Assembly (NCBI RefSeq): GCF_014773365.1
Contig: NZ_JACWUN010000012.1
Location: 1 to 64,000 of the forward strand
Direction of reading: 5' to 3'
From: Pelovirga terrestris
GTDB lineage: Bacteria; Desulfobacterota; Desulfuromonadia; Desulfuromonadales; Geopsychrobacteraceae
DNA: 64,000 bases
Position numbers and translations under genes: made by a program
The notes under the pieces: generated by a model
Databases searched by the model: none
The model's input: the letters and a program-made list of their open reading frames with translations, nothing else
Told to the model about the DNA's origin: nothing
Shown: positions 46,214-50,953 of the stretch, in pieces
Position numbering within the stretch: the first letter of the stretch is position 1
Layout: the number at the start of each line of letters is the position of its first letter

Positions 46214-47203
46214 GTGAGTGCCAAGGATAACCTGTCAGGTGATACTGTCCTCCCCTGGAGTGTCGGGCAGCGCCCGCTGATGCTGGCACCGATGCAGGGG
46301 CTGACCAACTCGGCCTTGCGGCGGCTGTATCTGCAGAAATATCAGCCGGATCTGGTCTTTACCGAGTTTGTCCGGGTGCAGGCTCAGACCAGAAAAAGGG
46401 TCGCTAAAAATGAGTTAAGCGATATGCAGGATCATAGCGCGGTCGCGCCGCTGGTGGTGCAACTGATCGGTAATGACCCTGAGGCCCTGGCTGATGCTGC
46501 GCTACTGTTGCAGGCGCAGGGAATACAGCACATCAACTTGAACCTGGGGTGTCCCTACGGGCGGATGACCACCGGCGCCACCGGTGGCGAACTGCTGCGC
46601 CAGCCGCAGCGGCTGGCCTTGATGCTGAAGGCGTTGCGGCGTGTTTGCCGGGGCAGTTTTTCGGTAAAATGCCGTGCCGGTTACGAGGACTTGCTTCAGT
46701 GGCAGAGTCTGCTTCCGCTGTTTGAAGAGTCCGCTGTCGATTTCATTGTCCTTCATCCCCGGACGGTAGCGCAGCGCTACAATGGTACTGCTGATCACCG
46801 GATCAGTGCCGCCATGGCGGCAGCAACCTCTCTACCGGTCATTGCCAACGGCGATATCAACTCGCCCCAAGCGGCACGGACGTTGTTGACCCGGACCGGT
46901 GTCGCCGGACTGATGATCGGTCGTGGCGCCCTGGCCGACCCGATGATTTTTCAGCGGATCCGCGGCACCGCACCCCTTGAGGTTGATCCCGCGCAGCGGA
47001 GGCGGGATCTCGGGCTCTTTATCGGCGACTTGTGGCCTGACTATCTGCAGAAATTTTGTGGTGAACGCCAGGCGCTGATGAAGATCAAGGACGTGCTGAA
47101 TTTTATTCCCGATGTCGATCTGCAGCGGGATCTCGGCAAGCTTAAGCGAACAACATCCGGCGCGGCCTTTCTCGCCAGACTGCAGCATACCTTTCCGGTT
47201 TAG
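46214..47203 (+). CDS. tRNA-dihydrouridine synthase family
   Basis: The 329-residue FMN-barrel protein has LMLAPMQGLTNSALRRL, the active-site cysteine in NLGCPYGRMTTGATGG, and GLMIGRGALADP. The TEFVRVQ stretch recalls DusC, but the exact class is uncertain. It reduces uridine in tRNA with NADPH. It probably starts with GTG at 46214, eight bases after the cobL stop. Confidence 0.9.
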   Translation: MSAKDNLSGDTVLPWSVGQRPLMLAPMQGLTNSALRRLYLQKYQPDLVFTEFVRVQAQTRKRVAKNELSDMQDHSAVAPLVVQLIGNDPEALADAALLLQAQGIQHINLNLGCPYGRMTTGATGGELLRQPQRLALMLKALRRVCRGSFSVKCRAGYEDLLQWQSLLPLFEESAVDFIVLHPRTVAQRYNGTADHRISAAMAAATSLPVIANGDINSPQAARTLLTRTGVAGLMIGRGALADPMIFQRIRGTAPLEVDPAQRRRDLGLFIGDLWPDYLQKFCGERQALMKIKDVLNFIPDVDLQRDLGKLKRTTSGAAFLARLQHTFPV

Positions 47204-47299
47204 CCAATCCCTGATTATCTTTTTTTAAAAATCCCTCAAAAATAGTGTCATTGTAGTGGTTTAGCCTCCCCCTGTCCACAACAAATCAACAGGTATCTG

Positions 47300-47345
47300 A
47301 CAAGATGTAGTATTAACTTTCTGACTCATCTACTAGATATAGTGT
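47300..47345 (+). promoter_or_regulatory. Tandem NrdR boxes upstream of nrdD
   Basis: Two sites, ACAAGATGTAGTAT at 47300-47313 and ACTAGATATAGTGT at 47332-47345, resemble the NrdR consensus (ACACTATATCTTGTGT-like). They are 32 bases apart start to start, about three helical turns, as usual for this repressor. They imply control of the anaerobic reductase operon by cellular dATP/ATP levels. The remaining gap 47204-47496 shows no gene. Confidence 0.75.
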
Positions 47346-47496
47346 TTTAGTCATTGTCTTGGTGTTGTTGCCTGTGCTAGCCTCTGCTACTGTGATTTTT
47401 CCAGTTGTACGCATCGATAAGGGGGGATGCCCCTTGTTGATAACCGCTGTTTTTATTGACGGGTGACCTTGGGTCACGACTGTTGGGAGAGAGGGT

Positions 47497-49485
47497 ATGC
47501 TGACATATATTCGTAAGCGCGATGGGCGTTTGGCCCCTTACGACGAAAACAAGATCACCCAGGCGATTTGCAATGCGGTTAAAGCCGTGGGGGGGAGCGA
47601 TTTTGAAAAGCCGGCGGAAATTACCCGTCAGGTCGGTGGTATCCTCGCTGTTCTTTATAAGGACAACAACCTCCCTTCCGTTGAGAATGTCCAGGATCTG
47701 GTCGAGAAAATCCTGATTGAAAACGGCCATGCCCAGACCGCCAAAGCCTACATCCTCTATCGTAAACAGCGTGAAGGCTTGCGGCGCACCCAGGAATTTA
47801 TGGAAGAGTCGATCGCTTCGATCGATTCCTATCTGGTGCGGGAGGACTGGCGGGTCAACGAAAATGCCAATATGGGCTATTCCCTGCAGGGGCTCAATAA
47901 TCATATCGCTGCCAATATTACCAGTAACTACTGGCTCAATAAAATTTACCCCGAGGATATTGCTCGCGCTCATCGTGAAGGCGATTTTCACATTCACGAT
48001 CTGGGAATGCTGTCGGTTTATTGCTGTGGCTGGGATCTGAAGGATCTGCTCCTGAAAGGTTTCTGTGGTGCTTACGGCAAGGTTCAGAGTGATCCGCCCA
48101 AACATTTCCGTACTGCCCTTGGTCAGGTGGTCAATTTCTTTTATACCCTGCAGGGAGAAGCGGCGGGGGCCCAGGCCTTTGCCGGCTTTGATACCCTGCT
48201 GGCACCCTTTATTGCCTATGACCAGTTGAGCTACAAGGAAATCCGTCAGTGCCTGCAGGAGTTTGTTTTTAATATGAACGTGCCGACCCGGGTTGGCTTC
48301 CAGACCCCCTTTACCAACATCACCATGGATATGATGGTGCCTGCCAATATGGCCGCTGAAGCGGTGGTGATCGGTGGCCGTCTGATGGATCGCTGTTATG
48401 GTGAGTTCCAGGCGGAGATGGATCTGTTCAATCAGGCCTTCTGCGAGGTGATGATGGAAGGAGATGCCTCGGGAAGGATCTTCTCGTTTCCGATTCCGAC
48501 CTACAACATCACCAAAGATCTCGACTGGGATAGTGATCGACTGCGCCCGGTGTTTGAAATGACTGCCAAGTACGGCATCCCTTATTTCAGCAATTTTGTT
48601 AACTCCGACATGGATCCGGAGGATGCCCGTTCCATGTGCTGTCGTTTGCGCTTGGATAACCGCGAACTGCGTCGCCGCGGCGGTGGCCTATTCGGCTCCA
48701 ATCCGATGACCGGATCGATCGGGGTGGTGACCGTCAATCTGCCGCGCGCTGCCTATCTGGCTGCAACCACGGCCGACTTTTTCAGTCGCATCAGCGAGTT
48801 GATGGACAGCGCCTTCCGTTCCCTGGAGATCAAACGTAAACAACTTGAACGTTTTACCGAAGAGGGCCTCTATCCTTACAGCAAGTTTTATCTGGATTCA
48901 ATCCGCCAGCGTAGCGGCAACTACTGGGATAACCACTTTTCCACTATCGGACTGATCGGCATGCATGAAGCTTGTCTTAACCTGATTGGCGCAGGGATCG
49001 ACAGTGTCGCAGGGCAGGCACTGGCCAAAGAGACCCTGGATTTTATGCGCCGGCAGCTCGAGGCCTTTCAGGATAAAACCGGCCATCTGTACAATCTTGA
49101 GGCAACCCCGGCCGAAGGAACCAGCTTCCGTCTTGCCAGTGGGGACCGCAAGCGCTTCCCCGATATTCATTGTGCCGGCACCAGCGAACCCTATTACACC
49201 AACTCAACCCAGCTGCCGGTGGGTACTACAGAAGATATCTTTGCTGCCCTGACCCATCAGGATGACTTGCAGACCCGCTATACCGGGGGTACGGTTTTTC
49301 ACGGCTTTCTTGGTGAGCGGCTTGAGGACTGGCGCAGCGCGCGTCTGCTGGTCAGGCGGATCGCGGAAAATTTCCATTTGCCCTATTTTACCTTGAGCCC
49401 GACTTTTACTATTTGTCCTGTCCATGGATATATCAGTGGTGAGCACTTTGCCTGTCCCCATGAACATGTTGAGCGGGCCGCCTGA
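47497..49485 (+). CDS. nrdD: Class III ribonucleotide reductase, catalytic chain without glycyl-radical tail
   Basis: The 662-residue product begins with an ATP cone (residues 3-90; IRKRDGRLAPYDENKI), followed by the NrdD barrel with substrate and allosteric-site segments. It ends in TICPVHGYISGEHFACPHEH, the first half of the C-terminal zinc site. The glycyl-radical loop that should follow is missing; it is encoded by a separate gene at 49674-49820. Reduction of ribonucleotides should therefore need both polypeptides and the activase NrdG. The stop is followed after two bases by a palindromic repeat. Tandem NrdR boxes lie upstream. Confidence 0.93.
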   Translation: MLTYIRKRDGRLAPYDENKITQAICNAVKAVGGSDFEKPAEITRQVGGILAVLYKDNNLPSVENVQDLVEKILIENGHAQTAKAYILYRKQREGLRRTQEFMEESIASIDSYLVREDWRVNENANMGYSLQGLNNHIAANITSNYWLNKIYPEDIARAHREGDFHIHDLGMLSVYCCGWDLKDLLLKGFCGAYGKVQSDPPKHFRTALGQVVNFFYTLQGEAAGAQAFAGFDTLLAPFIAYDQLSYKEIRQCLQEFVFNMNVPTRVGFQTPFTNITMDMMVPANMAAEAVVIGGRLMDRCYGEFQAEMDLFNQAFCEVMMEGDASGRIFSFPIPTYNITKDLDWDSDRLRPVFEMTAKYGIPYFSNFVNSDMDPEDARSMCCRLRLDNRELRRRGGGLFGSNPMTGSIGVVTVNLPRAAYLAATTADFFSRISELMDSAFRSLEIKRKQLERFTEEGLYPYSKFYLDSIRQRSGNYWDNHFSTIGLIGMHEACLNLIGAGIDSVAGQALAKETLDFMRRQLEAFQDKTGHLYNLEATPAEGTSFRLASGDRKRFPDIHCAGTSEPYYTNSTQLPVGTTEDIFAALTHQDDLQTRYTGGTVFHGFLGERLEDWRSARLLVRRIAENFHLPYFTLSPTFTICPVHGYISGEHFACPHEHVERAA

Positions 49486-49487
49486 TT

Positions 49488-49613
49488 GGTGGCGTCGCAA
49501 AAACTCACCAACGGCTGCGTTGCCACCATTGTCTCACTGCTTCGACGTACGTAAGTACGCCTCATTGTTCAACAATGGCGCGCCTTGCCTTTGGCGCTTT
49601 TTGCTTAGCCACC
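49488..49613. repeat. Palindromic repeat of the GGCGTCGCAAAAA type inside the nrd operon
   Basis: A 126-bp element with imperfect inverted ends (GGTGGCGTCGCAAAAA and TTTTTGCTTAGCCACC) and a near-symmetric centre CGACGTACGTAAGTACGCC. It begins two bases after the nrdD stop. A second small hairpin GATGCTTT-N5-AAAGCATC follows at 49620-49640. Confidence 0.75.
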
Positions 49614-49673
49614 CAACCTGATGCTTTTTGCGAAAGCATCCACATGACCCTGAAATAATAACAGGAGGAAATA

Positions 49674-49820
49674 ATGGCAACCAGATGTGATTCAAAGACC
49701 GAAGTATATTCGCGGGTGTGTGGATTTTTCCGCCCGGTGCAGCAATGGAATCGGGGTAAAAAGGAAGAGTTCAAGGATCGCTCCGAATATATTGTCGCAC
49801 CGACCGAGTTGAAGCGCTGA
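49674..49820 (+). CDS. Separate glycyl-radical polypeptide of the class III ribonucleotide reductase
   Basis: A 48-residue protein whose middle is the NrdD C-terminus: CDSKTEVYSRVCGFF with the radical glycine at residue 17 (RVCG), then RPVQQWNRGKKEEFKDR. It contains one cysteine (residue 5) that would complete the zinc site begun at the end of nrdD. It has its own strong ribosome-binding site, AGGAGG seven bases before the ATG, so it is a true translation unit and not an untranslated remnant. Its stop overlaps the apparent nrdG start (CTGA). By analogy with the autonomous glycyl-radical protein GrcA it may dock onto NrdD. Confidence 0.88.
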   Translation: MATRCDSKTEVYSRVCGFFRPVQQWNRGKKEEFKDRSEYIVAPTELKR

Positions 49821-50521
49821 AACCGATTTCTATTAAAGGGTTCCAGGGTACCAGCCTGCTCGATTTTCCCGGGCGGGTAGCGTCCCTGGTGTTTACCGGT
49901 GGCTGTAACCTGACCTGCCCCTTTTGTCATAATGGCGGGCTGGTGTTAGAACCTGACGGCTACCCGGATATCCCTCTAGACGAGTTGCTGGCAGATCTCA
50001 AGGCACGCAGGAACTTCATCGATGGGGTCGTTGTATCGGGCGGAGAACCGACCATCGAAGCCGGTCTGCCGGCATTTTTAGCTGAGCTTAAAAGGCTGGA
50101 TCTGCAGGTCAAGCTCGACACCAACGGGCTTTTACCCAAGGTCATTGCCCATCTGCTCGAACATCATCTGCTGGATTATATTGCCGTTGATATTAAAACG
50201 TCCCCCGAGCGCTATTCCGAACTGCACAGCGTCGCGGTTGATCCCGCCGGTCTTATCGCAACCGTCGAGTTGCTGAGCCAGGTTGCGATTGAGGTTGAAT
50301 ATCGCACCACTTGTATCCCCGGGTTGGTAACCCGGCAGGAGATTGACGCGATCGGAGACCTGCTGCGCGGAGCACCCCTGTGGGTGTTGCAGCAGTATGT
50401 TGCCGAGCATGCCATGGATACAGACTGGCAAGGGCTGGAAAAATACCCGCCGGAGCAGTTGCAGCAGTTCGCTGCCGGTGCGCAAGAGTATGTGCAGCAG
50501 GTGCAGGTGCGCGGAATCTAA
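49817..50521 (+). CDS. nrdG: Anaerobic ribonucleotide reductase activating protein NrdG
   Basis: A radical SAM enzyme of 234 residues with CNLTCPFC at residues 30-37 (cluster ligands), GGEPT and a conserved N-terminal IKGFQGTSLLDFPGR. It makes the glycyl radical on the reductase. The conserved N-terminus requires a start before the GTG at 49889. The only suitable codon is CTG at 49817, which overlaps the stop of the preceding gene as CTGA, so initiation is probably by translational coupling. This start is an inference; the gene itself is certain. Confidence 0.9.
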   Translation: MKPISIKGFQGTSLLDFPGRVASLVFTGGCNLTCPFCHNGGLVLEPDGYPDIPLDELLADLKARRNFIDGVVVSGGEPTIEAGLPAFLAELKRLDLQVKLDTNGLLPKVIAHLLEHHLLDYIAVDIKTSPERYSELHSVAVDPAGLIATVELLSQVAIEVEYRTTCIPGLVTRQEIDAIGDLLRGAPLWVLQQYVAEHAMDTDWQGLEKYPPEQLQQFAAGAQEYVQQVQVRGI

Positions 50522-50548
50522 AAACGCCGGATCATCGCAACGCAGTTG

Positions 50549-50705
50549 GTAACTGTTCAGCACCCGGTTGGGAATCCTATGTCAAGGGACGCGATTGTTT
50601 CCCGTTGGGTCATCCATGACCGCTTTGTGTCGCCGTCCATGGCGACACAAAGCCTTGCCGGAGGATCCAAAGACCCTGCGCGAAGGACTGCAGCTGAATA
50701 ATTAC
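50549..50705. repeat. Long palindromic element, copy D
   Basis: This copy has termini GTAACTGTTCAGC and GCTGAATAATTAC, the central GTCGCC/GGCGAC hairpin, and an extra 12 bases (GATTGTTTCCCG) in the left arm. Its right end contains the stop codon of the convergent cytochrome gene at 50702. Confidence 0.75.
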
Positions 50706-50953
50706 TGCAGTTTATGACAGAACAAGCACCTAAAGGTGGTGGGGTGATTCTCCGAGAAGGGGACCATCTCTTCGTTGTGACAATCAGTACAGGATGCTTC
50801 TGCGGCTTTTCGCCCCTCTTTTGCTGCGATCTCATAAAAAGACTCATGGGTTTCGTCCCGCGGAACCGGGGCCGTTGTCTCTTCCGGAGCCATCCACAAA
50901 AAAGTGACGATGGCTATCGCTCCGAGTAGAAGAAAAATATCGCGTTTTTTCAT
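50702..50953 (-). CDS. Small membrane-anchored di-haem c-type cytochrome
   Basis: An 83-residue protein with one N-terminal hydrophobic segment (residues 5-21) and two CxxCH haem motifs (CTDCH, CLFCH). The segment may be an uncleaved anchor or a signal peptide. It would carry electrons at the periplasmic face. The stop codon lies inside palindromic element D. The membrane protein gene at 51004-51336 lies 50 bases upstream on the same strand and could be its partner. Confidence 0.85.
   Translation of the reverse strand: MKKRDIFLLLGAIAIVTFLWMAPEETTAPVPRDETHESFYEIAAKEGRKAAEASCTDCHNEEMVPFSENHPTTFRCLFCHKLQ

Follow-up and report, generated by a model that had tools for sequence, protein, structure and literature searches.

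The class III ribonucleotide reductase (RNR) of Pelovirga terrestris has its catalytic protein encoded by two adjacent genes. In the stretch analysed here (the window; 64,000 nucleotides, positions 1 to 64,000 of contig NZ_JACWUN010000012.1, assembly GCF_014773365.1), the nrdD reading frame stops inside its C-terminal zinc motif, and the glycyl-radical loop is carried by a separate protein of 48 residues. The two genes are conserved and selected, and no other NRDD family match was found in the window genome (99.99% complete), nor was a second complete nrdD, a possibility raised in an earlier note on this DNA. Class III NrdD is characterized by one catalytic polypeptide, whereas the window pair comprises two open reading frames (ORFs); the window enzyme is a split variant and not a standard NrdD member. 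Based on the comparative sequence analysis below, we consider it very probable (roughly 0.86) that the pair encodes a working class III RNR to which the radical subunit is supplied in trans.

The Pfam search located PF03477 (ATP cone) on residues 4–93 of the large chain (E 3.7e-20). The large chain also covered positions 1–526 of the 562 positions of PF13597 (NRDD; E 1.8e-177), and the small chain covered positions 526–562 (E 1.5e-10). Thus, the two chains together represent the whole family from end to end, with nothing missing. The NCBIfam model NF006126 (684 positions) was divided between positions 3–646 on the large chain and 645–682 on the small chain. The small ORF encodes MATRCDSKTEVYSRVCGFFRPVQQWNRGKKEEFKDRSEYIVAPTELKR (48 residues), in which RVCGFFRP is matched to the end of PF13597. 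This places the predicted radical glycine on a separate small protein, as the earlier note had claimed.

The nrdD stop divides the CPxC half of the zinc motif, falling after its first cysteine and before its second. The large chain terminates in ...TICPVHGYISGEHFACPHEHVERAA before the stop codon, with CPVHGYISGEHFACPHEHVERAA as its final residues; Ala-Ala is the large-chain end (49477–49482 in the window) in 66 of 72 sequences, and the preceding residues vary. Cys640, His643 and Cys653 were invariant in 28/28 rows of alignment A4 and in 32/32 rows of alignment A1. The second CPxC cysteine was missing from all 97 distinct split large-chain tails, seven of which read CPC, with a cysteine one place off. 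A cysteine matching Cys5 of the small chain was present in all 98 distinct pairs, which bears out the proposed break inside the zinc motif, and in 100 of 100 core sequences, where the core pattern required it. Gly17 was found in 13/13 rows of alignment A2 and, again as a requirement of the pattern, in 100/100 core sequences. Single-chain NrdD proteins of the same phylum have a consensus of roughly CPxHGY..GE...CPxCGxxTEVYSRVVGYLRPV. The zinc ligands are CxxxHx6CxxC in Thermotoga maritima NrdD and CxxCx14CxxC in the T4 and Escherichia coli enzymes (PMC4493059). In terms of sequence positions only, the zinc ribbon of the split enzyme consists of three positions on the large chain and one on the small chain, suggesting by homology that the zinc site likely draws its 3 + 1 ligands from two chains.

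The earlier note had asked whether the split is lineage-wide or peculiar to one genome. An NRDD match was obtained in 56 of 60 relatives, a few of them fragments, and in none of the 56 was it continuous over positions 1–562 without in-frame stops. The class sample, with a match in 50 of 88 genomes, contained one uninterrupted 1–562 match (genome G073, contig C2). Among 132 retrieved glycyl-domain places (duplicates between collections included), 126 are pairs of a large and a small gene (98 distinct pairs); L100 was counted despite its masked large chain. Of the other six, L041 is single-chain and L059, L085, L102, L111 and L187 have no large chain within reach of the script; L187 comes from G035, where the profile match is to the small part only. 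The gap between the paired genes ranges from 11 to 290 nucleotides (nt; median 50.5), and all three relative reading frames occur (54, 49 and 23 pairs), with 49 pairs sharing a frame. The small gene is preceded by a Shine-Dalgarno-like string (pattern of at least four bases) in 125 of the 126 pairs, and the window has AGGAGG, in agreement with the good ribosome-binding site noted earlier.

The median ratio of nonsynonymous to synonymous substitution rates (dN/dS) was 0.105 for the small core (136 sequence pairs) and 0.142 for the large chain (71 pairs); the small set holds 100 of 115 small ORFs, the others falling outside the pattern, and includes some stand-alone copies. Purifying selection on the split pair is strong. 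Since sequence, place and start signal of the small ORF are kept in relatives at a dN/dS of 0.105, it is not a chance ORF. The comparison thus favours a working enzyme rather than a recent break, and indicates that the split is lineage-wide in the order Desulfuromonadales. Among the best 80 of 172 matches in a scan of named genomes, most are titled Desulfuromonadales, its genera or Deltaproteobacteria, including Desulfuromusa kysingii, Malonomonas rubra and Geothermobacter hydrogeniphilus. Some metagenome bins among these 80 carry different titles (Geobacteraceae, Desulfobacteraceae, one Chloroflexi and one Gammaproteobacteria) and are perhaps misnamed.

Table 1. Coordinates of the split nrdD locus and its sequence elements in the window.
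Feature	Position	Strand	Remark
nrdD large chain, 662 residues (ATP cone, barrel, first zinc-motif part)	47497..49485	+	lacks the glycyl-radical loop
Gene for the 48-residue glycyl-radical subunit	49674..49820	+	PF13597 526–562; conserved in relatives; dN/dS about 0.1
Large-chain zinc-motif part, CPVHGYISGEHFACPH: Cys640, His643, Cys653	49414..49461	+	invariant in alignments
Small-chain Cys5, candidate fourth zinc ligand	49686..49688	+	homologous place in small chains
Small-chain Gly17 (RVCGFF), expected radical site	49722..49724	+	homology with the NrdD radical loop
Cys-Cys, residues 381–382, RSMCCRL stretch	48637..48642	+	invariant in 28/28 rows of A4
Shine-Dalgarno AGGAGG	49663..49668	+	5 nt upstream of the small-gene ATG
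Spacer with a copy of a genome-wide repeat that could form hairpins	49486..49640	.	31 genome matches; variable in close relatives
nrdG-type radical S-adenosylmethionine activase	49817..50521	+	TIGR02495, E 1.2e-52; adjoins the small gene

In the window, 188 nt separate the nrdD stop codon from the small ORF, and the reading frames differ. The region between the genes is mostly made up of a repeat that has 31 matches across the window genome (21 longer than 100 nt, spacer copy included). An inverted-repeat search around the spacer found none; hairpins appeared in the script fold of the spacer. Repeat copies in the spacer were gained and lost among close relatives, and the spacer is free to vary: L052 contains the same repeat, L051 another palindrome and L053 a short stretch of 86 nt. 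Because the spacer differs among these three relatives, insertion of the repeat was rejected as the origin of the split. The likely nrdG start is a CTG that overlaps the stop of the small gene (CTGA, 49817–49820), an overlap that recurs in L051, L052 and L053, and the same arrangement was scored by script at 23 loci. No Rfam RNA, such as a cobalamin riboswitch, was matched in positions 46800–50900 at E up to 0.5; a B12-element has been reported upstream of nrdDG in Desulfuromonas.

Splits were also observed in other lineages. A sample of the phylum gave a match in 60 of 89 genomes, of which 44 were continuous to the family end (559–562) without stops. A separate C-terminal piece adjoins the large chain in seven genomes besides that of the window (G134, G136, G149, G171, G185, G196 and G206); G134 is uncertain due to a masked junction, and G202 has its match in two overlapping pieces. 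By our own reading, the split in G196 would concern an NrdD of a different subtype. In the type B split, which occurs mainly in another order of the class, the whole CPxC is on the large chain and the small chain contains ...QPCEVWTRVMGYHRPV. The type C split (L171 and L172) shows helix-like extensions at the break on both chains, which may pair with each other. Breaks recur across lineages at nearby points of the same short linker, which follows the first zinc half. In a tree of 53 cores, which was quick, midpoint-rooted and had several long branches, parsimony counted six changes between single and split states, two of them forced by the starred branches alone. Several independent fissions are thus likely from the sequence comparison. 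Two NrdD frames of 1076 and 842 residues, in L174 and at G159:C1:925993-928116, have a gap in the family match near 157–165 and are possible inteins.

The split enzyme was also found on plasmids, of which 7 of the 29 records found were examined. Type B pairs are present in Cupriavidus necator H16, C. metallidurans, Bradyrhizobium ottawaense, Sulfuricurvum kujiense and Paracoccus denitrificans, and the gene order large, small, activase is found in cultured bacteria with such a split. Where annotated, the small type B gene is called nrdD and the large gene "ribonucleoside triphosphate reductase"; the C. necator H16 small gene is located on pHG1 (protein WP_011154154.1). In a 1999 J. Bacteriol. 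paper, nrdD and nrdG of Alcaligenes eutrophus H16 were reportedly required for anaerobic growth. The plasmid NrdD of Actinomyces oris is single-chain. Plasmid pALVIN01 of Allochromatium vinosum carries a stand-alone radical-subunit gene annotated as nrdD (L357, 3495–3704), with no adjoining large chain.

Structure models were computed for the L007 pair as a read-through product, with the stop read as Ser, an 8-residue junction and the small-chain part at residues 669–720. The model reached a predicted local distance difference test score (pLDDT) of 81.8 and a predicted template modelling score of 0.77. It was aligned with Prevotella copri NrdD (8p2s_B) at Z 34.3 and a root-mean-square deviation (rmsd) of 2.6 over 561 residues, model residues 95–708 on chain residues 85–735, and with T. 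maritima NrdD (4u3e_B) at Z 33.7 and rmsd 3.2 (model residues 91–710). Both structure alignments run into the small-chain part. The window large chain modelled alone had a mean pLDDT of 82.8 but only 60–72 over residues 631–660, as compared to 71–84 in the zinc region of the joined L007 model. These values give only hints that the small chain may order the zinc region, as the models differ in sequence and alignment. A search of PDB sequences with the small chain alone returned one chance match only. In single-chain P. copri NrdD, the glycyl domain is mobile with deoxyadenosine triphosphate bound (PMC11226230), which makes a detached version plausible.

We infer from these data how the two chains may assemble into an active enzyme. 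The large chain would contribute three of the four zinc-ligand positions as well as the ATP cone and the barrel that holds the active-site cysteines. The 48-residue chain would add the radical glycine, the C-terminal tail and a cysteine as the fourth zinc ligand. Made from its own ribosome-binding site, the small chain would dock at the place of the glycyl-radical domain in single-chain NrdD, with zinc probably bridging the two chains. NrdG would install the glycyl radical on Gly17, from where the radical would move to a large-chain cysteine and start catalysis there. Oxygen damage would then cost only the 48-residue part.

Several observations weigh against the two-chain enzyme or restrict its reach. 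In the L007 model, pLDDT is below 50 at residues 660–670 and 66–79 over most of the small chain; with the chains joined by a translated spacer and the low junction values, the model is no demonstration of binding between separate chains. In type B splits, the large chain has all four of the candidate zinc ligands, so the shared zinc site is not general. The window genome has two loci of the class I/II RNR large-chain family, and an NRDD match is lacking altogether from 4 of the 60 relatives and from 38 of the 88 genomes of the class. The class III enzyme therefore need not be essential. In one Geoalkalibacter genome (G073, the source of the uninterrupted match), a single-chain NrdD on a plasmid is present alongside the split pair.

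Stand-alone radical-subunit genes were found in prophages and viral contigs. Six genomes of the order carry an extra copy away from nrdD, each in addition to a split pair. L180, L183 and L185 adjoin phage family phrog_286, with a DNA transposition protein also near L185, and L182 is located near Mu Gam and terminase genes. L181 and L182 encode proteins identical to those of the viral contigs L202 and L212. L184, which has a CobT-like gene beside it, is not clearly of phage origin. In viral contigs, the scan with the window protein gave 41 loci, and a further 108 came from using type B, type C and a 103-residue relative as queries (149 loci from four scans, some contigs occurring twice and 20 loci lacking a regular-expression match). 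Whole records were searched for all of the first 41 and for 50 of the 108, chosen mostly for size. Only the C-terminal end of the family was found in 40 of the 41 (two below the cut-off; one gave no match) and in 47 of the 50; the remaining three also had a large chain, always split. Thus, 87 of 91 viral contigs searched whole carry a lone glycyl-radical gene with no large chain on the contig, although such contigs may be incomplete; in G245, which is among the 87, the contig ends inside the gene.

The largest frame with the lone domain in viral contigs is at most 263 residues, so these are not single-chain enzymes. Outside the 50, L312 and L329 are ordinary single-chain NrdD, which shows that the viral scans were able to detect such enzymes, and L325 and L344 have a large-chain motif nearby; motifs near L297, L309 and L324 were not confirmed by the whole-record search. 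The genes of the viral split pairs are 0.2 kb (G298), 2 kb (G276) and 69 kb (G287) apart; in the 187-kb G287 (L352 and L353) the large chain ends in ...CPYDT. G217 (L209) has radical-subunit genes at two places, 2252 and 26945. At three checked phage copies, the neighbours are terminase, portal, primase, Sak4, RusA and helicase genes. The type A cysteine is present in 40 of 115 short phage frames, 12 of which have the type B cysteine too; 72 have that of type B only and 3 have neither; phages thus share the two main split layouts of cells. Broken copies were observed in L203 and L204 (stop) and in L241 (frame change). In PHROGs, the nine small proteins scanned gave only a weak match to an NrdD-family tail or a family of unknown function. 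Three phage GenBank records were obtained in all with queries of type A and type B and one taken from a phage; those of Bacteriophage sp. MT835493 and an Oceanotoga phage are single-chain, and the third is ANMV-1 virus. L186 (5096–5404, minus strand) encodes a stand-alone protein of 103 residues whose C-terminus has an NrdD-type radical loop; it is a candidate spare part in genome G191, which has a single-chain NrdD. Taken together, the phage small genes look like a widespread host-takeover function.

Three other explanations were weighed. A sequencing error or decaying gene was rejected, as the layout is the same in isolates and metagenome bins at a dN/dS of about 0.1, and nothing was found in its favour; its probability is negligible. 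Frameshifting, readthrough or splicing, whether of RNA or of protein, could instead yield one chain from the two ORFs, given that introns and inteins interrupt phage nrdD and that 49 of 126 pairs share a frame. However, all three relative frames occur, gaps span 11–290 nt, the small gene has its own Shine-Dalgarno string and start, repeats are inserted in the spacer, no Rfam match was obtained and the genes lie 69 kb apart in one phage. This explanation was likewise rejected and is highly improbable. Neutral fission, in which a break at a tolerant linker leaves obligate partners with no exchange or new regulation, agrees with the recurrence of breaks in this short linker behind the first half of the zinc motif and with the known split NrdA and NrdJ, but leaves the phage carriage of the small part alone unexplained; we regard it as a serious option at somewhat less than even odds.

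A further reading adds a purpose to the favoured two-gene enzyme and does not exclude it. Oxygen cuts single-chain glycyl-radical enzymes at the glycine and thereby destroys them (PMC3019208, PMC2795772). If the small chain could be exchanged after such a cut, only the 48-residue part would be lost, and this would account for phages having the small gene by itself, as with T4 Y06I. Tentatively, the radical site would be an exchangeable cartridge: cells would swap subunits killed by oxygen for their own or a phage copy, and phages would ship theirs to keep or restart deoxynucleoside triphosphate synthesis in the host. The lone genes in 87 of 91 viral contigs, the phage neighbours at checked loci (terminase, portal, primase, transposition protein and Mu Gam), the orphan copies in six genomes that also hold a split pair and the phage cysteine layouts matching the two main cellular types are consistent with this suggestion. 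On the other hand, a phage copy could just raise the dose, the contigs are perhaps fragments (G245 is truncated), the copies in L203, L204 and L241 are broken, and hosts were identified for prophages only. We therefore rate the replaceable subunit as possible, a little short of an even chance.

A separate glycyl-radical subunit of NrdD may be relevant beyond this locus. A radical on its own mini-protein would allow clean tests of radical installation, inter-chain transfer and repair. No description of such a subunit, or of phage copies, was found in the open-access literature, with most subscription-journal papers outside the scope. If the cartridge reading is true, this would to our knowledge be the first spare-part system for an RNR. 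Both chains can bear NrdD-like names, so surveys of NrdD may miscount. Already known are split class I and II RNRs and the interruption of phage nrdD by introns or inteins, and NCBI annotation labels some of the small genes nrdD.

Compared to the single-chain NrdD of T. maritima, T4, E. coli and P. copri, the window enzyme belongs to the same PF13597/NF006126 family and shares the sequence positions of the zinc-ribbon motif, the glycyl loop and the NrdG partner. Its ATP cone is common to most single-chain NrdD, and the cysteine pair in RSMCCRL resembles the SCCR motif described for T. maritima NrdD (PMC4493059). It differs from these enzymes in that the glycyl-radical domain is a separate gene and, in the Desulfuromonadales-type split, in that the fourth zinc-ligand position is on the second chain. 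An RNR catalytic chain on two genes is also found in class II NrdJa/NrdJb of Pseudomonas aeruginosa and in NrdA of phage Aeh1, both accepted in print as functional; these belong to other classes without a glycyl-radical site, and hence have no radical site on a mini-protein. Phage nrdD is likewise found in pieces where introns, inteins or genes of homing endonucleases interrupt it (PMC3653736; Jug phages, preprint PMC12363816), but these interruptions can mostly be spliced or decay, whereas the separate translation units described here persist across an order.

A further parallel is to YfiD (GrcA) and T4 Y06I, which are small stand-alone radical-glycine proteins with a phage-borne version, and the phage copies may be extra copies of this kind. 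YfiD and T4 Y06I both serve pyruvate formate-lyase as spare parts. No relation of the small chain to that enzyme was apparent in Pfam-A, where only PF13597 was reported at E up to 1. According to a published account, YfiD and Y06I are the only validated spare-part proteins, and ones for other glycyl-radical enzymes are thought possible (PMC8683613); the small genes provide concrete candidates for this idea. Unlike YfiD and Y06I, the window small chain matches NrdD in Pfam and is 48 residues long, as compared to about 14 kDa, and its gene is the only radical-site copy of the genome rather than an extra copy beside an intact enzyme.

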